Position numbers and translations under genes: made by a program. Under the pieces are notes generated by a model. The model made no database searches. It was not told the DNA's origin and worked only from the letters and a program-made list of their open reading frames with translations. A stretch of 23,288 nucleotides of DNA from a virus, in the IMG/VR virus record IMGVR_UViG_3300037054_000160, positions 1 through 23,288 of that record. One strand, written 5' to 3'. Shown here piece after piece: positions 4,179 to 21,596 of the stretch. The number at the start of each line of letters is the position of its first letter. The first letter of the stretch is position 1.

Positions 4179-4405
4179 AAACATTCTGGGCTTGGGTAGC
4201 CGCTCACAATGGAATCGTCCTCGGGTTCCTGGTCGTCGGTTATGTCTACGGAATGGTATCGACGATCCTGCTAACCCGGCCGCGGTACTGCGCGCGCTGC
4301 GGACAGCTCAACCGCTGGCTAAGCATGGAACATGCTGTGGCGCGTGGGCTGAAAGGCGACAAGGGCGATAAAGGCGAGCGCGGCGCTAAGGGCGAGCACG
4401 GATAA
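4175..4405 (+). CDS. Small membrane protein with CxxC and a collagen-like tail
   Basis: This gene encodes 76 residues. The ATG overlaps the previous stop (ATGA). An N-terminal membrane segment (about residues 12-34) is followed by RPRYCARCGQLNRW, which carries a CxxC pair. The C-terminus is a run of six Gly-X-Y triplets with charged X/Y residues (GDKGDKGERGAKGEHG). The next gene is a paralogue lacking the collagen-like tail. Two CxxC-bearing subunits could share a metal or form disulfides, and the triplets could trimerise the protein, but this is inference. It sits between the tail genes and the HNH gene, where a lysis or host-envelope function would be plausible. Confidence 0.7.
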   Translation: MKTFWAWVAAHNGIVLGFLVVGYVYGMVSTILLTRPRYCARCGQLNRWLSMEHAVARGLKGDKGDKGERGAKGEHG

Positions 4406-4421
4406 GAGGGCCAACTAGATT

Positions 4422-4673
4422 ATGTGGGAAACCTTGTGGAAATTGATGGACGGGCACAACGGCGTGTTTACCATCGGCCTGGTCGTGGGCTTCGTGTCCG
4501 GAACGCTCTGGACGGTATTCGCCGCCCGCCCTCGATTCTGCGCACGCTGCGGCCAGTACAACCAGTGGATCAATGCGGAGAAGGTAAGGCTGAAGCTGCT
4601 GAAGCAGAAACATAACCGCCGGAAGGGAGATAAGGATAAGGAAGGCGCTGTGGAAAATGGCGAGCAGACATGA
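4422..4673 (+). CDS. Small membrane protein with CxxC, paralogue of preceding gene
   Basis: This gene encodes 83 residues. It shares with the preceding protein the pattern HNG-V...LVVGfV-G...T, then RPRFCARCGQYNQW, so the two arose by tandem duplication. It has one N-terminal membrane segment (about 14-36). Its C-terminus is a lysine-rich charged helix (KLLKQKHNRRKGDKDKE) instead of Gly-X-Y repeats. The start has only a weak, distant AGGG upstream. A product anchored in the inner membrane with a cytoplasmic basic tail is plausible. No function is assigned. Confidence 0.7.
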   Translation: MWETLWKLMDGHNGVFTIGLVVGFVSGTLWTVFAARPRFCARCGQYNQWINAEKVRLKLLKQKHNRRKGDKDKEGAVENGEQT

Positions 4674-7361: not shown

Positions 7362-7395
7362 CAACCCGCTCGCGACTTAGTTGATAATGTATAAG

Positions 7396-7419
7396 CGGTT
7401 TACTTAACATAAACCGGTT
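7396..7419. promoter_or_regulatory. Inverted repeat, probable operator
   Basis: CGGTTTA (7396-7402) and TAAACCG (7410-7416) form perfect 7-bp arms with a 7-nt spacer. The right arm overlaps the palindrome AACCGGTT (7412-7419). It lies about 35 nt downstream of the promoter -10 and 38 nt before the HTH start. An autoregulatory site for that HTH protein is the simplest reading. Confidence 0.5.
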
Positions 7420-7456
7420 AGACATTAGTAAAAGGCGCGAAGCCGTCGAGGCTTAC

Positions 7457-7696
7457 GTGCCAGCTTCCGTTAAGCGCCGCAAGAAAGCAGTTTCCGAGAC
7501 AGACTTCGTAGAGCTCGGCCGTCGCCTCAAATTATTCCGCCTGGAGAAATATCTCTCCTACAAGAAGCTCTCCCTGCTAGTCGGCGGCGGCATTTGCGTT
7601 GATACGATTCGGCGCGCCGAACGTGGCAAACGGCTCAACGCGGTTACTGCCTACAAAATCAAACGACTCCTGGAGGGGGTTAACAGTCATGCGTAA
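7457..7696 (+). CDS. XRE/Cro-like helix-turn-helix regulator
   Basis: A 79-residue protein with a GTG start and GAGG five nt upstream. After a basic N-terminus, residues about 17-72 have the five-helix Cro/XRE layout: LGRRLKLFRLEKYLSYKKLS, VDTIRRAERGKRLNAVTAYKIKRLLEG. The recognition helix would be near VDTIRRAERG. As the first gene after the strong promoter and palindromic sites, it is the likely early regulator. No matching CI-type repressor with a peptidase domain or integrase is seen in the window, so lysogeny is not demonstrated. Confidence 0.7.
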   Translation: MPASVKRRKKAVSETDFVELGRRLKLFRLEKYLSYKKLSLLVGGGICVDTIRRAERGKRLNAVTAYKIKRLLEGVNSHA

Positions 7697-9347: not shown

Positions 9348-9864
9348 GGCGAGCAAGACAGCAATCATAGAACGGCCGCTGCGGGAACTAGCCGATGAAC
9401 TATTCACGGAGTTTTTTGATTCCATTCTCGAACAGTCCGCACTCACTCCAGAGCAGCAAGACAAATTGGCCGAGTGCTTGAAGGATGGAGCCATTGAAAA
9501 GCGCGACCGTATCGCTAACTTTCTCTGGCGATGGGAAGCCGAAGCGCAGTACGTGCGCACCAGGGAACAGGGCCTTGCCGACTACCGCCATCAAATCGAG
9601 AAGGTCATCGGCTGCATCAAGGAAACGATCAAGGTGCAGTTTGAGAATTGGGGTGTGCGCAAAGTCGAGGGCCGAGAATCTCGCTTCACGCTCAAGAAAA
9701 ACCCGCCCAAGGTCGAGGTGTTCGACGAATCAGCGCTGCCCGGCGAGTACATCAATTATGTACCGACTCCCGACAAACGCAAGATTGCCGATGACCTGTC
9801 GGCCGGCAAACAGATTCCCGGCGCACGGTACGCCGATCCTAGTCAACGTTTGGAGATTAAATGA
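9346..9864 (+). CDS. Siphovirus Gp157-like protein
   Basis: A 172-residue protein; ATG at 9346 with AGGGGGAG upstream. A longer frame extends to 8875, but that part is antisense or out of frame with the genes above. The N-terminus is helical (RPLRELADELFTEFFDSILE). The middle has IANFLWRWEAEAQYVRTREQ and a helix to about 100. A C-terminal basic/beta part follows (SRFTLKKNPPKVEVFDESAL, then PGEYINY). This matches the siphovirus Gp157 family, which typically lies beside RecT/ERF annealases. Its ATGA overlap with recT supports a joint recombination role. Confidence 0.75.
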   Translation: MASKTAIIERPLRELADELFTEFFDSILEQSALTPEQQDKLAECLKDGAIEKRDRIANFLWRWEAEAQYVRTREQGLADYRHQIEKVIGCIKETIKVQFENWGVRKVEGRESRFTLKKNPPKVEVFDESALPGEYINYVPTPDKRKIADDLSAGKQIPGARYADPSQRLEIK

Positions 9865-10970
9865 GCGCCACAGCAATAACGAACGCCACACCGAAAGCGC
9901 CGACCCTCGTTGAAATGCTCGATAAGGTGAGGCCGCAAGTTATGCTCGCGCTACCGAAGGGCTTCGACGCGGGCCGCATGATCCGCACCGTGCTTACGGC
10001 AGTGCAGAAGACTCCCAAGCTAATGCAATGCACGCCGCAAAGCATCGTCCTAGCCGTCCTCCAGGCAGCACAACTCGGACTCGACGTGGATGGATTTCTA
10101 GGACACGCCTACCTAGTTCCTTATTGGAATAAAAAATCTGGCAAGAACGAGGCGCAACTCCAGGTTGGATACCGCGGCTTCATTGCACTTGCGCGGCGCT
10201 CCGGAGAGATAAGCGCGATCAGTGCCGAGATTGTCTACAGCGAGGATAGTTTCAGTGTGAGCCTCGGCACCGACCGCAAGGTTACACACCTGCCCGCTCC
10301 TGGTGATCGGGGCGAAGCGATAGGGGCGTACGCCGTAGTTTTTTACAAGGACGGATTCAAGGACTTCGAATGGATGACGAAGAACCAAATTGAGCACGTC
10401 CGCAAATCTTCCAAGGCTGCCGATGATGGTCCTTGGGTCACCCATTGGGAAGAGATGGCGAGGAAGAGTCCAATACGAAGGCTCGCAAAGCGACTGCCCC
10501 TATCCGCAGAGGATTCCGCGCTCATACGCGCCGCGGTTCTGGACGAGTACCATGAGGCATCAGATGTTGACGATCCTCCTGCAGGAATTATCGAGCTAGA
10601 GCCTGAATCTCCGCTACTTACAAATGGCAACGTTCCTGACGGTCAATATGCTGAGGTGGCCGCCCCTAAAGAGACAGAAGGGCGCATCCCCGCAAGTTCC
10701 GAAGTGATTTTCTTCCACGTCGGAAAGATGTTAACGACGCTGACTGGCGCAACGCCTCGTCTCAGTCTTACCGAGTACAAAAACCTTGGCGGCCGGCGCT
10801 ATGAAACTATCAAGGGCTGGACGATTCCAGGATCGCTCACCGAGAACTTCCTTAAGTTGTGCGAGTCAAAGAAAATCCCCGTCTCTGAGATTGACGATAA
10901 CGGGCAACCGATGGCCGCGCCATTCATGGCGACTAACGACGACCTGCCCGGCATGTTCAGCGGCCAGTAA
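9861..10970 (+). CDS. recT: RecT-family single-strand annealing protein
   Basis: This gene encodes 369 residues; the ATG overlaps the previous stop. The RecT core spans about residues 15-240: LALPKGFDAGRMIRTVLTAV, then TPQSIVLAVLQAAQLGLDVD, GHAYLVPYWNKK, AQLQVGYRGFIALARRSG and WEEMARKSPIRRLAKRLPLS are diagnostic. It anneals complementary single strands during phage recombination. A C-terminal extension (about 245-369) of unknown role ends NDDLPGMFSGQ; its acidic-proline-Phe end loosely recalls SSB-type tails. No exonuclease partner is recognised in the window. Confidence 0.92.
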   Translation: MSATAITNATPKAPTLVEMLDKVRPQVMLALPKGFDAGRMIRTVLTAVQKTPKLMQCTPQSIVLAVLQAAQLGLDVDGFLGHAYLVPYWNKKSGKNEAQLQVGYRGFIALARRSGEISAISAEIVYSEDSFSVSLGTDRKVTHLPAPGDRGEAIGAYAVVFYKDGFKDFEWMTKNQIEHVRKSSKAADDGPWVTHWEEMARKSPIRRLAKRLPLSAEDSALIRAAVLDEYHEASDVDDPPAGIIELEPESPLLTNGNVPDGQYAEVAAPKETEGRIPASSEVIFFHVGKMLTTLTGATPRLSLTEYKNLGGRRYETIKGWTIPGSLTENFLKLCESKKIPVSEIDDNGQPMAAPFMATNDDLPGMFSGQ

Positions 10971-13986: not shown

Positions 13987-14231
13987 CACCGGCAGCGTGT
14001 CGCGACCTACGGCGATGGCCTAGCTCAGTGGAGTTCCGCATGGCATCGGCGAAGTAGCGCATGGCATCGGCGAAGTGATGGCGATGAGCCGCTCAGCGAC
14101 GGCAGAGTAACGCGAAGTTTTGCTTAGGCATAGTACTGCGGTGTTCTGCCGAGTGATGGCAATGCGTGGCAACCGTTTCGCGATGCCTCGGCACTGCTTA
14201 GCCGCGTCGCGCGCAGGCAAGGAGGAGAAAA
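13987..14231. repeat. 5-nt-phased 'GC' repeat tract
   Basis: This 245-nt non-coding stretch is built of degenerate units of about 5 nt ending in GC (for example ATGGC GATGA GCCGC TCAGC GACGGC), with occasional 6-nt units. It includes an 18-bp direct repeat, GCATGGCATCGGCGAAGT, at 14038-14055 and 14059-14076 (period 21). It ends just before the AAGGAGG of the next gene. No ORF in either strand is convincing. Confidence 0.65.
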
Positions 14232-14954
14232 GTGAGTTCAGAAATAAACCCAAGAATTAGAGCGTGGCTCTGTGACCGTTGCGGCAAGAAGACTGTCGAT
14301 AAACCGCTAACCATGGAGCTAAATGCTCCTCCCGCCAATCTACCAGAACTCGTTGAGGTCAAGCATTCTGACGGCTCTAACGTTCTAGAGTGGTGGTGCT
14401 GGCAGTGTGTTGCCAGTGAAACCGAATTGCCGCTAGCGGAGCCTAATCTAATACAGTTGGGAAAATATCGTGAAGTTATCGGAGTTGAGGAGAAAATATC
14501 CAAAAGTGTTCGAGGTGCGAAAATGAGCGACTGGGGAGAGCGCCACGCGTGCCGTTTTGCTGGCGGCGGAATTGTCATGACAAATGTAGATTATTGCCCC
14601 AACGGTGATCACTCACTGAAACTTGACTTTAGTAAAGCCGATCTCGACAACGCAGTGCAGGCTGAACGAGAAAAGTGGACGAAGCTGTATCACGACAAAA
14701 GTGGCGCTGTACTGGATATGGCTGCGATCATCGACAAAGCCACCCAGCTGGCCGTAGCGCAGGCGCGGATCAGTGAGGCAAAGTGGTGGGAGCATTTAGC
14801 AGGCGAATCCCACGCTTGGCACGAGGAGAATTCTATTGTTTGTCCCTACTGCGCGCATATGACAGAACTACAAGCCAACGTGGACACTGCGCGGTTAGGA
14901 AGCCCCAAGGAAAGCCCTATAGCGAAGGATCTAAGCGTAGCGCGCGATTTGTAA
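14232..14954 (+). CDS. Zn-ribbon-type protein, probable fusion of two small genes
   Basis: A 240-residue protein, GTG start with AAGGAGG upstream. The N-terminal half has CDRCGKK (about 14-20) and WWCWQCVAS (about 55), two CxxC pairs forming a zinc ribbon. At codon 98 an internal ATG (14523) with GAGGTG upstream begins a second half, MSDWGERHACRFAGGG, containing VQAEREKW and a further CPYCAH pair. The junction TTCGAGGTGCGAAAATGAG matches the gene boundary at 17675-17692 except for one extra A, which fuses the frames here. The product may be one fused protein or two. The function is unknown. Confidence 0.6.
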   Translation: MSSEINPRIRAWLCDRCGKKTVDKPLTMELNAPPANLPELVEVKHSDGSNVLEWWCWQCVASETELPLAEPNLIQLGKYREVIGVEEKISKSVRGAKMSDWGERHACRFAGGGIVMTNVDYCPNGDHSLKLDFSKADLDNAVQAEREKWTKLYHDKSGAVLDMAAIIDKATQLAVAQARISEAKWWEHLAGESHAWHEENSIVCPYCAHMTELQANVDTARLGSPKESPIAKDLSVARDL

Positions 14955-15023
14955 GAAACGCCCGACTTTATTGGCATACCAGGATGAAAACGCAGCCAGT
15001 TAGCTACTGATTCGATATTTACG

Positions 15024-15060
15024 GAATTTGGGTTACATAACTATTTTTATCGGACGTGAG
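15024..15060 (+). repeat. Leader repeat copy A
   Basis: A GAATTTGGGTT...TATCGGACG block just upstream of the 15067 gene, repeated with a few changes at 15585-15620 before the methyltransferase gene. It is AT-rich and probably includes translation or transcription signals. Confidence 0.65.
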
Positions 15061-15066
15061 GTGGAG

Positions 15067-15246
15067 ATGATTTACGAGGTCGTGATCGGGGAATCTAGTT
15101 CGTTGGCTCAAGACAAATGGCTCATAAACGCTTCGTCTCTTCTGGTCGCAGTAAGTAAAGCAGAAAAACAAAGAAAGCGCCACGACGAGTTCAATAATGG
15201 GTGGGTATTAATAAGCGCAAAAGAGATCGGTAAACTAGTAAAGTAA
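15067..15246 (+). CDS. Hypothetical protein (59 aa)
   Basis: ATG at 15067, preceded by GAGGTGGAG at a short spacing. A TTG at 15028 would add residues encoded by the leader repeat and is less likely. The protein begins MIYEVVIGESSSLAQDKWLI and ends SAKEIGKLVK. It has an alpha/beta pattern and no motif I recognise. It lies between leader copy A and the first rusA-start copy. Confidence 0.55.
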   Translation: MIYEVVIGESSSLAQDKWLINASSLLVAVSKAEKQRKRHDEFNNGWVLISAKEIGKLVK

Positions 15247-15277
15247 AATGCTCCTCCTGACCATCTACGGCGTACCG
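15246..15277 (+). repeat. First displaced copy of the rusA 5' end
   Basis: Thirty-two nt identical to 16471-16502, i.e. the two bases before rusA plus its first ten codons. It encodes the micro-ORF MLLLTIYGVPR, whose TGA (15281-15283) overlaps the ATG of the next small ORF. Confidence 0.9.
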
Positions 15278-15282
15278 AGGTG

Positions 15283-15486
15283 ATGGATGCCGTTCATCCA
15301 GATTGCCCGTGCAGTTGCCATTCCGATATGCCGATAGGAAGTCGCGTGTGTGAGCGTGAAGGTTGCTACGAGTGCTGGAAGCTGTTCGGGCACCTGTGCC
15401 GTGCTTTGAGCCTTCATCTTTTTCCCGTCTCTCTTTTTCGCCTTCATGCGGCACTATGCCTTCACCGCATTTCACCATATCGGTGA
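15283..15486 (+). CDS. Doubtful Cys-rich small ORF (67 aa)
   Basis: The ATG overlaps the stop of the truncated rusA micro-ORF (TGATG), so translation could be coupled. Residues 1-33 look metal-binding (DCPCSCHSD, then CEREGCYECWKLF). The second half is Leu/His/Arg-rich and looks degenerate. It may be a real small gene with a decayed end. It lies between two rusA-start copies. Confidence 0.35.
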   Translation: MDAVHPDCPCSCHSDMPIGSRVCEREGCYECWKLFGHLCRALSLHLFPVSLFRLHAALCLHRISPYR

Positions 15487-15488
15487 AA
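15470..15488. terminator. Hairpin, possible weak terminator
   Basis: TTTCACC-atatc-GGTGAAA gives a perfect 7-bp stem with a 5-nt loop at the end of the 15283 ORF. CAAAGATTTT follows, with only a short T run, so termination is uncertain. Confidence 0.35.
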
Positions 15489-15543
15489 CAAAGATTTTAG
15501 GCCACGAATTGAATGGCCAGATATTCTAGGAAATGTGAAGAGC

Positions 15544-15573
15544 AAATGCTCCTCCTGACCATCTACGGCGTAC
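15544..15573 (+). repeat. Second displaced copy of the rusA 5' end
   Basis: Thirty nt identical to the start of rusA (16471-16500). It encodes the micro-ORF MLLLTIYGVLRF, stopping at 15582-15584, directly before leader copy B. Confidence 0.9.
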
Positions 15574-15584
15574 TGCGGTTCTGA

Positions 15585-15620
15585 GAATTTGGGTTGCATG
15601 AATATTTATTATCGGACGAG
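15585..15620 (+). repeat. Leader repeat copy B
   Basis: GAATTTGGGTTGCATGAATA...ATCGGACGAG, an imperfect copy of 15024-15060, ending 3 nt before the methyltransferase ATG. Confidence 0.65.
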
Positions 15621-15623
15621 AGC

Positions 15624-16472
15624 ATGGCTAGAGGTCGTCCTGTTTTGCGATACCACGGTGGCAAGTGGCTGTTCGCCCGCGTACTAATTGGATTGTTTCC
15701 ATCGCACCGCATTTACGTTGAGCCGTTCTCCGGTGCTGCTTCCGTTTTTATGCAAAAGCCACGTTCGTACGGAGAGGTATTAAACGACAAATGGGATGTG
15801 GTTGTAAATGTCTTTCAGTGCCTACGCGATCCCGTGAAGTCCGAGCAGCTAAAAGAGAGTTTGCGACTAACCCCATTTTCTCGGACAGAATTCAATCTGG
15901 CTTTTGGACATAGGCCTAAATTTCCAGGAGACGTGGAGGCGGCCCGCCTTTGCATTCTTAGATCATTCGCCGGTTTTGGTTCAGCCAGTACCAATGGTGA
16001 TTACGCCACGGGATTTAGGTCTAACTCGAATAGGTCGGGGACAACGCCGGCGCAAGATTGGATGCACTACCCGGATTCTGTCGCAGGATTCGTTGAAAGG
16101 TTGCGAGGAGTTGTAATTGAGAATAAGGACGCGCTCGAAGTAATTCCACAACAGGACGGACTGGACACCCTTTTTTACTGTGACCCTCCCTATGTTTTGG
16201 GAACGAGAAATGTCGCGCGCGGCAATGCCGCTTATTCGTGCGACATGACCGACGATGACCACCGACGCTTTGCGCAAGTAATCAAAGCCGTACGTGGAAT
16301 GGTGGTGCTAAGCGGATATGCGTGCCCGCTGTACGACTGCGAGCTGTTCCCAGACTGGCACAGGAAAGAGTTTTCCTGGCGCGCAGATGGTGCTCGAAAG
16401 CGTGTCGAAGTTATCTGGATGAATGAGGCTGTGGCGTGTAGGGTTCCGCAACTTGAGTTTGACAAAGCCTAA
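15624..16472 (+). CDS. D12-class DNA N6-adenine methyltransferase
   Basis: A 282-residue protein, the usual length for Dam-like enzymes. Start at ATG 15624; a TTG at 15594 would translate the leader repeat. Motifs: LRYHGGKW (residues 8-15, AdoMet-contact motif X), YVEPFSGAASVF (31-42, motif I) and FYCDPPYVLG with the catalytic DPPY at 187-190. It would methylate adenine in a short target, probably shielding phage DNA from host restriction. No cognate restriction enzyme is adjacent, so it looks like an orphan. Its TAA is followed directly by the rusA ATG. Confidence 0.92.
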   Translation: MARGRPVLRYHGGKWLFARVLIGLFPSHRIYVEPFSGAASVFMQKPRSYGEVLNDKWDVVVNVFQCLRDPVKSEQLKESLRLTPFSRTEFNLAFGHRPKFPGDVEAARLCILRSFAGFGSASTNGDYATGFRSNSNRSGTTPAQDWMHYPDSVAGFVERLRGVVIENKDALEVIPQQDGLDTLFYCDPPYVLGTRNVARGNAAYSCDMTDDDHRRFAQVIKAVRGMVVLSGYACPLYDCELFPDWHRKEFSWRADGARKRVEVIWMNEAVACRVPQLEFDKA

Positions 16473-16949
16473 ATGCTCCTCCTGACCATCTACGGCGTAC
16501 CGGTCGCCAAAGGCAGCATGAAAGCCTTTATGCGCCCCGGCATGCGCTTCCCGATCGTGACACACGACTCACTACAAACTAAGCCGTGGCAGCAACAGGT
16601 ATCGATCATGGCGAAGATAGGAATGTCAGAAGGCAACGCGGAAATCATCAGGCGCCCCAACGCCGTTCGCGTACAAGCTGAGTTCTATTTCGCGCGACCG
16701 CAACGCACCAAGAAAACCGTAAACCACAAGACGACAAAGCCGGACGTGGAAAAGCTAGCCAGAAATCTTTTAGACGCGCTGACCGGAATCTGTTACGAGG
16801 ACGATGCGCAAGTCGCGGAGTGCTCGGTCAGCAAGGCGTTCGACGAGACGCCGCGATCAGTTGTGAGGGTCAGCGCACTAGAAGAAGACTTCGATGTGCA
16901 CAGCGATAAAGTTCGGAGCGCAACATACAGGGACCTCTTTGGAGATTAA
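16473..16949 (+). CDS. rusA: RusA-family Holliday-junction resolvase
   Basis: A 158-residue protein. It begins MLLLTIYGVPVAKGSMKAF and contains TKPDVEKLARNLLDALTG, then CYEDDAQVAECSVSK, the RusA signature. Likely metal-binding acidic residues are D91, D101 and D110/D111. RusA dimers cut four-way junctions symmetrically, debranching phage DNA before packaging, which suits a genome carrying recT. Its first 30 nt occur twice more upstream (15246 and 15544). No separate Shine-Dalgarno is evident; it starts right after the methyltransferase stop. Confidence 0.92.
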   Translation: MLLLTIYGVPVAKGSMKAFMRPGMRFPIVTHDSLQTKPWQQQVSIMAKIGMSEGNAEIIRRPNAVRVQAEFYFARPQRTKKTVNHKTTKPDVEKLARNLLDALTGICYEDDAQVAECSVSKAFDETPRSVVRVSALEEDFDVHSDKVRSATYRDLFGD

Positions 16950-17052
16950 AAGCCCTGCGGATATTCTCAAACACTGGTGAGGCCGACGCGCTGTGGCTGC
17001 TCGAGTACGGCCGGCAGAGATTGGTCAGAGATGTGAAGCAAGCGAGGTTGAG

Positions 17053-17691
17053 ATGAGCGTGCTGACGGATGCGACGTACTGGCTGATTCAGTTCGAGGAC
17101 GCCGGTAAGAAAGCTGAAATATTCACTGATGAGGCTTGTGCGCGTGCTCGTTACGAACAACTGCAACTTAATTGGAACTGCCATTTATTCGTGCAGGTCA
17201 AAGTTATCGACCACCTGCGCCAAGAGCGTGCGGACACGGTGCAGGCGGCCGTGGCTGCGGCGCTGGAGCAGGCGGCTGGGACCGAATGCGATCTGTGTCG
17301 TGATGGCGTGCCGATGCGGGCTGATGGGAAAATGCATTCGTCGTCGTTATGCGACAACAGCTGCCACGCGCCGAAGATTCGTGCACTCATCACCGCCGAC
17401 GCGATCAAGGCGCTGGCCGAGCATGACGCCGCCCTTCTCAGGCAACACGGTTTCGATGCCAGCATGGATGCTATGGCAGAGGATGTGACCGACCTTTACG
17501 AGCAGATCGCCAGTAAGTCCGACGAAGATCTTACCGTGGAAGCCCAGCGACTCAAAAAGGCGATGAACTTGGCGTTGCAGGCGCATGTGCAGGCTGAGCG
17601 GGAGCGGTGCGCCTTCATCGCAGAGACTTATTCCGAAGCTGAACCGTGGGTTTGCCGGCACATTGCAGCGGCGATTCGAGGTGCGAAATGA
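17053..17691 (+). CDS. Hypothetical protein with Cys knuckle and helical C-terminus
   Basis: A 212-residue protein; ATG at 17053 with GAGG upstream (a GTG at 16993 is an alternative). Residues 1-55 are alpha/beta (TYWLIQFEDAGKKAEIFTDE). A Cys/His segment follows (TECDLCRDGVPM, then SLCDNSCHAPK), probably metal-binding. The rest is helical, ending VQAERERCAFIAETYSEAE and AAIRGAK. It shares the 'VQAERE' phrase and the RGAK-end DNA with the 14232 gene. It resembles composite phage accessory proteins; the function is unknown. Confidence 0.65.
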   Translation: MSVLTDATYWLIQFEDAGKKAEIFTDEACARARYEQLQLNWNCHLFVQVKVIDHLRQERADTVQAAVAAALEQAAGTECDLCRDGVPMRADGKMHSSSLCDNSCHAPKIRALITADAIKALAEHDAALLRQHGFDASMDAMAEDVTDLYEQIASKSDEDLTVEAQRLKKAMNLALQAHVQAERERCAFIAETYSEAEPWVCRHIAAAIRGAK

Positions 17692-17858
17692 GAATTTCGA
17701 GAAAGACAACTTCCTTTCTAAGAACTCCGGGCGAACAGGAATACTATGGGCCTTGGTTTGTGTGCAGCGCGTGCGAGGCAAAATTCGTGATTTATACAGA
17801 GAAAGACGATCCTAAATTCTGCCCGAGATGTGGACGGAAGGCTGCGATCCCCACATGA
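17688..17858 (+). CDS. Small zinc-ribbon protein (56 aa)
   Basis: The ATG overlaps the previous stop (ATGA). FVCSACEAKFVIYTEKDDPK followed by FCPRCGRKA gives two CxxC pairs about 20 residues apart, a classic zinc ribbon. The N-terminus is basic. No partner domain is present. It may bind nucleic acid or protein. Confidence 0.7.
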   Translation: MRISRKTTSFLRTPGEQEYYGPWFVCSACEAKFVIYTEKDDPKFCPRCGRKAAIPT

Positions 17859-17865
17859 GTTGCGC

Positions 17866-17933
17866 CCGAAGCTGCCTTCGGCTCCGCACGAACCGCAGCC
17901 GGATTGTTTGTTTTCGGTTTGGGAGTGTACACT
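17866..17933. promoter_or_regulatory. Hairpin and 10-bp palindrome, possible weak promoter
   Basis: CCGAAG-ctgc-CTTCGG (17866-17881) is a 6-bp hairpin after the zinc-ribbon gene, without a T run. AGTGTACACT (17924-17933) is a perfect palindrome lying where TACACT could be a -10, with TTGTTT 18 nt upstream. Both readings (operator, promoter) are tentative. Confidence 0.35.
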
Positions 17934-17951
17934 ACGGCCGGGGAGATAAAA

Positions 17952-18059
17952 ATGAAATTAGACGGCGAAGACTGCTCGGTAATCTTGGAGGCGTTACAGC
18001 GTATTGAAGCCAAGGTTGAATCGTCCGCAATTTCGCAAAAGATTACAGATGCTCACTGA
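17952..18059 (+). CDS. Tiny hypothetical protein (35 aa)
   Basis: MKLDGEDCSVILEALQRIEA begins it; GGGGAG lies about 7 nt upstream. It is a single acidic helix ending SQKITDAH, overlapping the next gene by 11 nt. No motif is recognised. Confidence 0.45.
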   Translation: MKLDGEDCSVILEALQRIEAKVESSAISQKITDAH

Positions 18060-18261
18060 AGTCGCAAAAGCAAAGCTTCATGGGTATTTAATTTCCGCGG
18101 CCAAAGAGGTCTCTTATGCCATTACACTTCGTGACGATTATGACGTTCGTGGGTATATAAACCTGGAATTTATTCAAGCAGAGCTTCGTCATAAAGCGGC
18201 CATGATTGAAACCGAACCGACGCTCGATATTCTTCAGCCAACTCGGCCGACATTGGGATAG
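18049..18261 (+). CDS. Hypothetical protein (70 aa)
   Basis: The ATG at 18049 lies inside the end of the previous small gene; the frame extends upstream to a TTG at 18004, which would overlap it more. The protein is alpha/beta: MLTEVAKAKLHGYLISAAKE, then VRGYINLEFIQAELRHKAAM. The function is unknown. A minus-strand ORF (18170-18481) overlaps its 3' end and is considered less likely. Confidence 0.45.
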   Translation: MLTEVAKAKLHGYLISAAKEVSYAITLRDDYDVRGYINLEFIQAELRHKAAMIETEPTLDILQPTRPTLG

Positions 18262-18450
18262 CCTGTCCTTCCGTACAGTCTTTACCACACGTAACACCTA
18301 ACCTAAATAAACTGTTGTATTTACAGCCGGTTCGCATACCATCTGCATGGATGTTTGTGCCGTAGCGCTTCTGATTAGCGCTAGGCAAGCCGTCCTCCAG
18401 GCTCAAACTCGGAGGCACCTCTTTTTCGCGGAGGTGTTTCTGCTCAACCC
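18262..18450. other. Non-coding gap with two hairpins
   Basis: TAGCGCT-tctgatt-AGCGCTA (18363-18383) is a perfect 7-bp stem with a 7-nt loop. CACCTC (18416-18421) pairs with GAGGTG (18431-18436), hiding a GGAGGTG that could serve the next gene. No gene with a convincing start was found. Confidence 0.45.
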
Positions 18451-18843
18451 TTGGCACTAAAGAATATCTGCTCGATACCACGCACCTGGACGCTCGAAGA
18501 CTATCGAAAGCACACCTGCATAGACGGCAGTCACGGCCACGTTTCGCGCGCCGAACTGAAGCCCAGTATCGCTAAAGGTCTCGTCGTGTGGCTGATCGAA
18601 GGACAGACACGGCGCGAATCGAGTGTGATTTATGTGCTGCCAGACGCGCATCCCGGGCCAGCAACAAAGAGACCGTGCTCACCTCCAATCAACACAGGAT
18701 TGTCCTACGCGGTCGGCGCCGAACTAGCCAACGCTTTTTACAACAGAGAGCCATACGCGGCGGTGATGCTCGCAAATATTCGCACGAAGCGTGAAAGTCC
18801 CGCGCCTGAGTTCGCTCCAGAGTTCTACTCGAATCAAATCTAA
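18451..18843 (+). CDS. Hypothetical protein (130 aa)
   Basis: A TTG start with GGAGGTG about 14 nt upstream, inside a hairpin. It begins MALKNICSIPRTWTLEDYRK; HTCIDGSHGHVSRAEL and GLVVWLIEGQTRRESSVIYV follow, giving an alpha/beta pattern. The C-terminus is Pro/Glu-rich. I do not recognise the family. It is the last accessory gene before the packaging module. Confidence 0.5.
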   Translation: MALKNICSIPRTWTLEDYRKHTCIDGSHGHVSRAELKPSIAKGLVVWLIEGQTRRESSVIYVLPDAHPGPATKRPCSPPINTGLSYAVGAELANAFYNREPYAAVMLANIRTKRESPAPEFAPEFYSNQI

Positions 18844-18864
18844 ATCGAAAAATGAGGTTTTGAA

Positions 18865-19263
18865 ATGTCAACAACACCGGCACCGGTAACAGCGGCCGCC
18901 GTAACTGCGGCTCCATCAGTAAGCGAACTAACGAAGATTTGGAACTGGATCAAAGGAAAGGTTGTAGTCGTGGAAACCGATCTAGTCTCGATACTTGGCT
19001 CCAAGGCTGCGGCTGACCTTGAAGCTGTTGGCAAGACCATGCTTGACAGCTGGATCGGTCCTCTTGCTACCAGCGCAATCGCGGATGCCACCGATATCGT
19101 AACTGGCCAAATGTCCGTCTCTAAAGCGGTTAGCGGACTGGTGGCATCGGCCACCAGCACTGGCAAGACGGTGTCTGCGGCTGCAGCGTTGCAGGCCATC
19201 GCCATCATTCAGAATGCGTTGCCTGTCGGCACGGCAAACGGTACGGTAACGCCCGTCGCGTAA
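18865..19263 (+). CDS. Ala/Val-rich protein with hydrophobic helices
   Basis: A 132-residue protein, ATG with GAGG 7 nt upstream. A Pro/Ala/Thr N-terminus leads to ELTKIWNWIKGKVVVVETDL and Ala-rich helices (SKAAADLEAVGKTMLDSW, TVSAAAALQAIAIIQNAL). Hydrophobicity is moderate, without a clear membrane span. Its position just before terS suggests a late-operon protein. No family is recognised. Confidence 0.55.
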   Translation: MSTTPAPVTAAAVTAAPSVSELTKIWNWIKGKVVVVETDLVSILGSKAAADLEAVGKTMLDSWIGPLATSAIADATDIVTGQMSVSKAVSGLVASATSTGKTVSAAAALQAIAIIQNALPVGTANGTVTPVA

Positions 19264-19402
19264 GTGCGCTCAGCGCACTTCCAGCCCCAGGGGGAGGGGG
19301 GTCAAAATCCTTAAAGTTGAGCCCCTTGCGGACCGTTGCCCGGGCGAACACGCATTTCCGCGAAATTAGAATTTCCGGTTTTCCGCAGTAACTCACAAAG
19401 AG
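19262..19402. promoter_or_regulatory. Inverted repeats upstream of terS, candidate cos/pac region
   Basis: AAGTGCGCT-c-AGCGCACTT (19262-19280) is a perfect 9-bp inverted repeat starting within the stop codon of the previous gene. It has no T run, so it is a weak terminator candidate. CCCCAGGGGGAGGGGGG (about 19285-19301) and GAAATT-ag-AATTTC (19362-19375) follow. Packaging start sites of HK97-like phages often lie just before terS; that role is inferred from position only. Confidence 0.4.
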
Positions 19403-19894
19403 ATGGCCAGAGCCAGAGGACAAGGACGGCGCCCGACCCCTACGGCGCTAAAGAGGGCGCGCGGCAATCCGGGCAAGCGGAAACTAAATAATAAAGAGCC
19501 ATTACCGGCTACGGGCGAACCGGAAATGCCAGAGGGCCTGTCGAAGCTTGCTATTGGAAAGTGGAAATCGCTAGTTCCTGAGTTGCTCGCGCTTGGAGTG
19601 CTCACCAGGGTTGACGGCGAAGCTCTCGCGAACCTCTGCACCGCGTATTCTCATCAGCGAATAGCCGAGAAGGCGATACAGCGCCTGGGCACCGCTGCAC
19701 TTGACGACGAGCATGGGAAATTACTGAAGCACTGGAACGACGCGACAAAGATTATGAAGCAGTTCGAAGTGGAGTTTGGTCTCACGCCAGCGTCACGATC
19801 GCGGCTGAATGTGAACGATGGCGAGAAAACTAAAGACCCCGCCGACCAATACTTTGCAAACGTTCGGCCCATCCGATCCAGTCAGTCAGCATAG
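19403..19894 (+). CDS. terS: Phage terminase small subunit, P27 family
   Basis: This gene encodes 163 residues. The basic N-terminus with RPTPTALKRARGNPGKRKLN and EPLPATGEPEMPEGL is the P27-family signature. GKWKSLVPELLALGVLTRVD and YSHQRIAEKAIQRLG follow, then VEFGLTPASRSRL near the C-terminus, as in the family. It recognises the packaging site and recruits the large subunit. It overlaps terL by 77 nt, indicating translational coupling. Confidence 0.92.
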   Translation: MARARGQGRRPTPTALKRARGNPGKRKLNNKEPLPATGEPEMPEGLSKLAIGKWKSLVPELLALGVLTRVDGEALANLCTAYSHQRIAEKAIQRLGTAALDDEHGKLLKHWNDATKIMKQFEVEFGLTPASRSRLNVNDGEKTKDPADQYFANVRPIRSSQSA

Positions 19895-21596
19895 CGCCGA
19901 CGTTGTAGCCGGCAAGATTCTCGCCGGCCGCATGGTCATGCTGGCGTGCGAGCGTCATCTGCGCGACCTGAAAGACGGCCCAAAACGCGGGATTTTCTGG
20001 GACCCCGATGCGGCGCAGCGCGTAATCCGGTTCTTCCCGGACGTGCTGCGGCTCTCTGAGGGAGAGTACGCTGGCAAGCCTTTCGTTTTATCGCCATGGC
20101 AGCAATTCATCGTCGGCTCACTTTTCGGATGGAAGAGCGCGGACGGCTTCCGACGCTTCCGGAACGCGTACATAGAGATTGGCAAGGGCAATGGCAAGAG
20201 TCCTCTGGCTGGCGGCATCGGCATTTACATGATGACGGCGGACGGGGAAGCGCACGCCGAGTGTTACGCCGCCGCGACGACGCGCGACCAGGCCAGCATA
20301 CTTTTCCGCGACGCAGTGAACATGGTAGACGCATCTCCGGCGCTGTCGTCGCGCATCGTGAAATCTGGCGGTCAGCAGATTCACAACCTGTATCACCCAG
20401 CGAGCGGATCGTTTTTCCGGCCGGTGTCTTCAGAAGGACGCGGACTAGACGGCAAGCGCGTTCACTATGCAGCTCTTGATGAAATCCACGAACATCCAAC
20501 CCCGGTTGTCGTCGATAAGATGCGCGCCGGCACTAAGGGACGCCGTCAGGCGCTCATTGTCGGCATCACCAATTCCGGCTTTGACCGTGATTCCGTCTGC
20601 TGGCACATGCATGAGTACTCGGAGCACATCGTAGAGCGGCAGGATGAGAACGACGCTTGGTTTGCTTATGTCTGCCAGCTCGACAAGGACGACCAGTGGA
20701 CCGACGAGCGCGTCTGGCCGAAAGCAAATCCGAACCTGGGCGTTTCCGTTCCCCTCAAATATCTGCGTGAGCAGGTTGCGGAAGCACAGGGAATGCCAAG
20801 CAAGCAAAACGTTGTCCGGCGCCTCAACTTCTGTGAGTGGACAAATCAGGAGACGGCCGCTATCGACGCCGAAGACTGGAATAAGTGCGTCGGATTTTCA
20901 CTGGCCGGCCGCGATGCCAAGGTGCTACGCGAGGAAATGGAGCAGCGCCTCGAAGGCCGCACGTGTTTTATTGCGGTGGACCTCTCTTCCACCGAAGACA
21001 CTACCTGTTCGCTAAAGCTTTTCCCTCCGACCGACGACTGCGACCTCTACATTGCTATCCCCCATTTCTGGGTCCCGGAAGACAATGTCGAGCGTAAGGT
21101 CAAGGAAGCACGCCTTCCTTACGATGTCTGGGTCCGCGAAGGTTTTCTGCTCACCACGCCAGGATCCGTTGTCGATTATGACGCCGTCATGGAGCAGGTC
21201 CTCAAGGACTGTGAACGGTACGATGTTCGCGAGATTACGTTCGATCCTTGGAATTCAACTCAATTTTCCAACAATCTGCAAAAAGAAGGTATCGCCGTTG
21301 AGCGCCTGGTGATTTTCAAGCAGACGCTTGAATTCTTCCACGAGCCTACCAAAAAGCTGCTCGATGAACTTATACCGACGCGACGAATTGCGCACCTCGC
21401 TAATCCGGTACTGCGATCGCACGCGGCCAATCTAGAGAAAAAAGAAGACGTGAGCGGCAATCTTCGACCCATTAAAAACAGGCAACGCGGCAAAGTGGAT
21501 GGGATGTTCTGCTTGATCATGGCCCTGGGCCGCGCAAACGCGAATGCTGACGGCGGATGCGTTTACGACGATGGGCGCGAGATTGTGGTCGTATGA
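19818..21596 (+). CDS. terL: Phage terminase large subunit
   Basis: A 592-residue protein of the Terminase_1 type. The N-terminus has VVAGKILAGRMVMLACERHL. The ATPase has a Walker-A-like IEIGKGNGKS (119-128) and a Walker-B VHYAALDEIHE (D221, E222). FRPVSSEGRGLDGKRVH lies just before it. The nuclease domain has FIAVDLSSTEDTT (D388) and KVDGMFCLIMALG (D561) as likely metal ligands. It pumps DNA into proheads and cuts unit genomes. The start lies inside terS with a weak Shine-Dalgarno. Its length and motifs are complete. Confidence 0.95.
   Translation: MARKLKTPPTNTLQTFGPSDPVSQHSADVVAGKILAGRMVMLACERHLRDLKDGPKRGIFWDPDAAQRVIRFFPDVLRLSEGEYAGKPFVLSPWQQFIVGSLFGWKSADGFRRFRNAYIEIGKGNGKSPLAGGIGIYMMTADGEAHAECYAAATTRDQASILFRDAVNMVDASPALSSRIVKSGGQQIHNLYHPASGSFFRPVSSEGRGLDGKRVHYAALDEIHEHPTPVVVDKMRAGTKGRRQALIVGITNSGFDRDSVCWHMHEYSEHIVERQDENDAWFAYVCQLDKDDQWTDERVWPKANPNLGVSVPLKYLREQVAEAQGMPSKQNVVRRLNFCEWTNQETAAIDAEDWNKCVGFSLAGRDAKVLREEMEQRLEGRTCFIAVDLSSTEDTTCSLKLFPPTDDCDLYIAIPHFWVPEDNVERKVKEARLPYDVWVREGFLLTTPGSVVDYDAVMEQVLKDCERYDVREITFDPWNSTQFSNNLQKEGIAVERLVIFKQTLEFFHEPTKKLLDELIPTRRIAHLANPVLRSHAANLEKKEDVSGNLRPIKNRQRGKVDGMFCLIMALGRANANADGGCVYDDGREIVVV

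Follow-up and report, generated by a model that had tools for sequence, protein, structure and literature searches.

The rusA locus of this phage raises the question of how one gene came to have its first codons written three times on the same strand, with other genes in between. The window analyzed here, i.e., the whole stretch of DNA, is a 23,288-bp virus record of IMG/VR in which RecT, RusA, terminase and portal genes are present. The first 30 letters of rusA (AAATGCTCCTCCTGACCATCTACGGCGTAC, beginning with AAATGCTCC and ending with GGCGTAC) are found exactly at 15246..15275 (copy 1), 15544..15573 (copy 2) and 16471..16500 (copy 3), all on the plus strand, which confirms what the first-pass annotation of this DNA had noticed. 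The 20-mer AAATGCTCCTCCTGACCATC has exact copies starting at the same three positions, and not a single match to it appeared in 100 dinucleotide shuffles, even when three mismatches were allowed. The common length is 30 nt for all three copies and 32 nt for copies 1 and 3; copies 1 and 2 have 36 nt in common with two mismatches. Only copy 3 leads into a full RusA (16473..16949). Copy 1 reads MLLLTIYGVPR* in a stub ORF of 11 codons (15248..15283), and copy 2 reads MLLLTIYGVLRF* in a stub ORF of 12 codons (15546..15584). The earlier description of one complete resolvase and two stubs of 11 and 12 codons was thereby borne out.

The two stubs could be the remains of full-length rusA genes, an outcome against which the first-pass annotation had wished its own reading to be checked. 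However, no rusA-like sequence was detected 3' of either stub, by self-blastn or by local alignments. Because the DNA following both is without similarity to rusA, the stubs are, judging from the sequence, cut-off gene starts and not decayed genes. The joins with the inserted DNA fall at the edge of the 30-mer, the second point on which the annotation had asked for a check.

The intact gene at 16473..16949 encodes a RusA-type Holliday junction resolvase of 158 aa (PF05866, E = 1.6e-15; phrog_140, E = 4.8e-28). It scores 58.2 bits against PF05866, for a cut-off of 22.8, and residues D91, D101, D110 and D111 are invariant in an eight-member alignment. Directly upstream, on the same strand, lies a D12-class (Dam-type) adenine methyltransferase at 15624..16472 (PF02086, E = 1.1e-15; phrog_56, E = 6.4e-53; the profile scan was started at 15594), with phage homologues of about 50% identity and a stop codon overlapping the rusA start region (TAAATG). 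The small ORF in front of copy 1 (15067..15246, plus strand) counts 59 codons, or 72 from a TTG at 15028, and its stop abuts the first rusA start. Its in-frame codon score is higher than that of the other frames; no protein-family or phage match was found for it. The small ORF has a GC content of 43%, compared with 52% in the methyltransferase and 55% in rusA. Between copies 1 and 2, a middle segment of 268 bp (15276..15543, plus strand) holds a Cys-rich ORF of 67 codons (15283..15486), whose start overlaps the stop of stub 1 (TGATG). The codon statistics of this ORF are weak, the small ORFs gave no match when searched against phages, and no clear gene ends at copy 2; the middle ORF is perhaps the relic of a gene, or does not code at all. 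Of the layout proposed earlier, the genes before copy 1 and between copies 2 and 3 were retained, and the middle ORF became doubtful in view of its poor codon statistics.

A second repeat, absent from the first-pass account, was added by the present analysis. It is a leader of 37-38 nt, present on the plus strand at 15024..15060 (copy A, directly 5' of the small ORF) and at 15585..15622 (copy B, starting directly 3' of the stub 2 stop), and was recovered by self-blast with an E-value of 7e-4. The two copies are identical at 33 of 37 aligned bases, with one gap of 1 nt. The leader ends 1-6 nt 5' of the start codons of the small ORF (ATG at 15067) and the methyltransferase (ATG at 15624), and the stops of these two genes (TAAAATG for the small ORF) abut the AAATG of a rusA start. 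The order along the locus is leader A, small ORF, rusA start 1, 268-bp piece, rusA start 2, leader B, methyltransferase and rusA: two complete units of leader, gene and rusA start, plus the 268-bp fragment, are stacked 5' of one intact rusA. The two units are alike in build, and each gene would therefore once have directly adjoined an intact rusA. No ends common to all three units were found, the leader being present in two of the three and missing from the middle one. A scan of 14900-16600 limited to sigma-70-like promoters gave none, and no unusual RNA structure was predicted at the repeats (z between -1.1 and 1.0; z = 0.41 for the leader fold).

A possible decayed fourth rusA 5' end lies further upstream, at 14321..14343 on the plus strand (20/23 match), within the ORF at 14232-14954. 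The score of its extended match, 17.5, was reached in none of 300 window shuffles and none of 2000 shuffled queries, and by 5 of 3000 synonymous recodings of the containing ORF. On these statistics, the segment is probably related to the rusA start, but it is kept as uncertain because the ORF that contains it otherwise looks coherent. A larger duplication, at which the near-equal copy spacings of 925 and 927 hinted, was rejected: the segments have only the leader in common, at an offset of 561.

For comparison, 87 other rusA loci were collected, 80 from IMG/VR and 7 more. None of them repeats any part of its rusA start over more than 14 nt, whereas 32 nt recur in the window. Furthermore, 112 loci (1.16 Mb, window included) were screened for exact direct repeats of at least 24 nt and, by our own classification of the listed repeats, the window alone has a bare gene start as the repeat. 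The remaining ones are low-complexity or tandem sequences, repeated fiber segments, shared domains and isolated pairs. No relevant precedent for gene-start stubs in phages was met in the literature searched. One candidate for a comparable case, three adjacent minus-strand genes just 3' of rusA in locus L060 (7080-8863), was set aside, as their Lys/Pro-rich repeat is a C-terminal domain common to the neighboring genes. In locus L007 (2368-9190), glycine-rich fiber-like genes share a near-identical segment of 80 nt (TVFTTSGVFTVPKGVKSIDV). Of its six copies, four lie on one strand and two on the opposite one, and they surround a homologue of window ORF 13357; this set resembles a repertoire on which recombination or inversion could draw.

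The slot 5' of rusA is variable. With mechanically called ORFs and the window included, 58 neighbor families occupy it at 87 loci, and the neighbor touches or overlaps rusA at 62 of the 87. Recognizable neighbors elsewhere are DNA methyltransferases, Mom, HNH endonucleases and regulators, these alternative genes being observed among distant relatives only. HNH families match a few of the genes directly 5' of rusA, and an HNH gene is annotated at or near this place in L010 and L032. Close relatives of the locus itself did not turn up. The search for the 30-mer across contigs that the first-pass annotation had proposed yielded no second source, its central 23-nt core being absent from IMG/VR. 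Queries with RusA, the methyltransferase, ORF 14232 and the leader had no hit in IMG/VR, and blastn gave none for 14200-17200 against phages or for 15246-15545 against plasmids. TerL retrieved only distant relatives from the genomes searched. Across the IMG/VR and phage searches, no relative spanning 14200-17150 and none with one unit fewer was found.

The stubs are probably the scars of a serial accretion of genes, by unequal recombination at short homologies between sibling phages. Such siblings would carry a leader, a gene X and rusA in this order, with X differing in the slot 5' of rusA; here, the small ORF and the methyltransferase would be such genes, as perhaps would the middle fragment. 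In an out-of-register exchange, the recipient would be cut just inside its rusA, at roughly codon 10, and DNA 5' of the X of the donor would be attached there. The donor rusA would arrive together with X, leaving the gene whole, so that each event would add one X and the first 30-32 nt of the recipient's rusA would remain as a scar. Once a scar is present, the 30-nt repeats, which are near the RecA limit, would suffice for an annealing of the RecT type, and units could be added or removed. Within this scheme, the sequence of events, the donors and the part played by RecT are what we infer. The window does encode a RecT-family single-strand annealing protein (9861..10970, plus strand; PF03837, E = 8.6e-54; phrog_148, E = 2.2e-82), and pairing is published to need at least 23-27 bp with Red-beta and 31-34 bp with RecA (PMC3945230). 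Annealers similar to RecT are known to act on short homologies. The earlier suggestion that RecT anneals such short homologies is plausible to this extent, the gene being present and 30 nt exceeding the Red-beta minimum; that RecT acted at this locus is a supposition.

This serial accretion is supported by the exact 30-mer, present three times and each time at the stubs followed by an abrupt end of similarity. Moreover, the leaders are about 13% apart and the 30-mers 0%; the leaders were thus probably already different when they were joined, which would make their import from a sibling likelier than a duplication at the locus. The like build of two units, the GC content of the small ORF and the variability of the slot 5' of rusA also count in favor of accretion. 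The claim of a repeated insertion just 5' of rusA, with the gene start regenerated each time, fits these observations, as the stubs are not full-length rusA copies in decay and are joined at the 30-mer edge.

A near-identical contig, L014, allows a view of the region just downstream. It is 99.7% identical to the window over 19286-21583 (2.3 kb, packaging region), and, in 17409..19290 (plus strand), identical pieces alternate with unrelated ones. One of the joints sits in a 24-nt block (23/24) that is common with a site 162 bp away. Sequence discontinuities at short common sequences, with gene function kept, are seen both at the rusA locus and in this comparison. L014 gives direct support for this manner of change, by swaps of whole segments, just downstream of rusA.

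However, rusA is broken at almost the same point in the two stubs, with 30 and 32 nt of it retained. Were any point of rusA possible, we estimate that two independent random joins would agree so closely in about 1% of cases. A favored site of breakage, selection, or the origin of one scar from the other would therefore have to be invoked, and the near-coincidence keeps a different reading open, in which cassettes bounded by the 30-mer move without an integrase: recombination between the flanking 30-mers would release them as circles that carry a single 30-mer, and RecT or RecA would insert them at another rusA start. It would account for two inserts flanked on both sides by the exact 30-mer, whose beginnings lie no more than 2 nt apart relative to rusA, and the repeat is longer than the pairing minimum of Red-beta (PMC3945230) in a phage that encodes RecT. 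Nevertheless, such movement is unlikely, as no second genome with any cassette or the 30-mer core was found, none of the 87 other rusA loci has the arrangement, exchange between repeats would delete as readily as add, and a precise first insertion would still have to be explained. The more general idea that the rusA start is an integrase-free docking site, at which the annealing system of the phage itself swaps 30-mer-bounded cassettes between genomes, is likewise quite doubtful. If true, an ordered array of accessory genes would be built there, and the stubs would be its join sequences.

An error of the metagenome assembly, joining pieces of different genomes at an overlap of 30-32 nt, has in its favor that the length of the repeat is near common assembly word sizes and that no independent contig was found over the region. 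It is nonetheless very improbable: even with a wrong order, the junctions between stub and foreign DNA must exist in some reads, the contexts are gene-coherent, and two other contigs match this one elsewhere at 99.7-99.96% identity.

Integrative elements can restore their target gene, with the start regenerated and a remnant left at the other end, and the first-pass annotation had compared the locus with them. The rusA start is indeed regenerated at every step, a remnant is left, and almost the same break point was used twice, as expected if site-specific mobile elements targeted the rusA start in the manner of integrases or free-standing homing endonucleases. HNH families also match a few other rusA neighbors, and an HNH gene adjoins rusA in Tunturi_1. 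The likeness did not hold, in contrast, for the units themselves, which have no recombinase gene and no common ends. From 14232 to 17691, the ORFs tested gave no match to an integrase, a transposase or another recombinase or endonuclease besides RusA, though an enzyme encoded elsewhere in the genome might act in trans. The middle insert measures just 268 bp, the cassette ends are not conserved, and neither the other rusA loci (0/87) nor IMG/VR, from which the 23-nt core is missing, speak for recurrence. Site-specific elements are accordingly given very little credence.

Just as little is given to a functional role of the stubs, kept as short coupling ORFs or leader peptides by which translation would be connected from gene to gene in the operon. 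Stub 1 starts at the stop of the upstream gene and ends in the next ATG, and stub 2 stops immediately 5' of leader B, contacts that would suit coupling. Such stop-start contacts are, however, ordinary at phage rusA genes, and neither unusual RNA structures (z from -1.1 to 1.0 at the repeats) nor promoter-like sites accompany them. Finally, a tandem duplication of the whole rusA followed by decay, although in line with three same-strand copies of the start, is practically negligible, since decay would give a gradient instead of 30-32 perfect nucleotides followed by zero similarity.

Phage mosaicism at short repeats is known; the stacking in series at the start of a gene makes the present case an unusual variant of it. 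The PeSL elements of T4-type phages, on which Arbiol et al. are said to have reported in 2010, are mobile regulatory cassettes; they resemble the leader described here in being a repeated upstream element attached to different genes. In contrast, no sigma-70-like promoter and no stem-loop were detected in the leader of the rusA locus, where the dominant repeat is coding. In lambdoid phages, short and conserved sequences stand at gene borders, and different genes are exchanged through them. A short border sequence would serve as the exchange site in both cases, but the lambdoid boundaries are compared between phages, whereas the rusA boundary recurs as scars inside a single genome. The lambdoid boundary sequences are mentioned in PMC3029335, as is the cluster I mycobacteriophage Island3, whose gene 68 is absent from the near-identical Brujita and repeats at its end the end of gene 67; the difference was explained by recombination at a short repeat (PMC3029335). 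The Island3 repeat was re-found here, with 65 nt at 88%. An inserted gene beside a short repeat of its neighbor is common to both phages; Island3 differs in having a 3' end repeat and one insert, against an exact 5' end and two inserts in series at the rusA locus. Whether small accessory genes enter phage genomes harmlessly at gene borders by random joins followed by selection or through short shared sequences is debated (PMC3029335, PMC3945230). Intermediates that normally escape notice are preserved in such a row of scars with its regenerated gene start; siblings living in the same habitat could reveal whether the exchange passes through the 30-mer.

Some further features were seen in the window. 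In the comparison of 17409-19290 with L014 1-2310, one gene has its N- and C-terminal parts in common and an unrelated middle, and a gene end is conserved (L014 477-492, window 17677-17692). A diverged tandem gene pair, at 4179-4318 and 4429-4568, is 63% identical over 140 nt. At 7385-7427, an imperfect palindrome of 43 nt (79%) occupies the gap 5' of the ORF at 7457.
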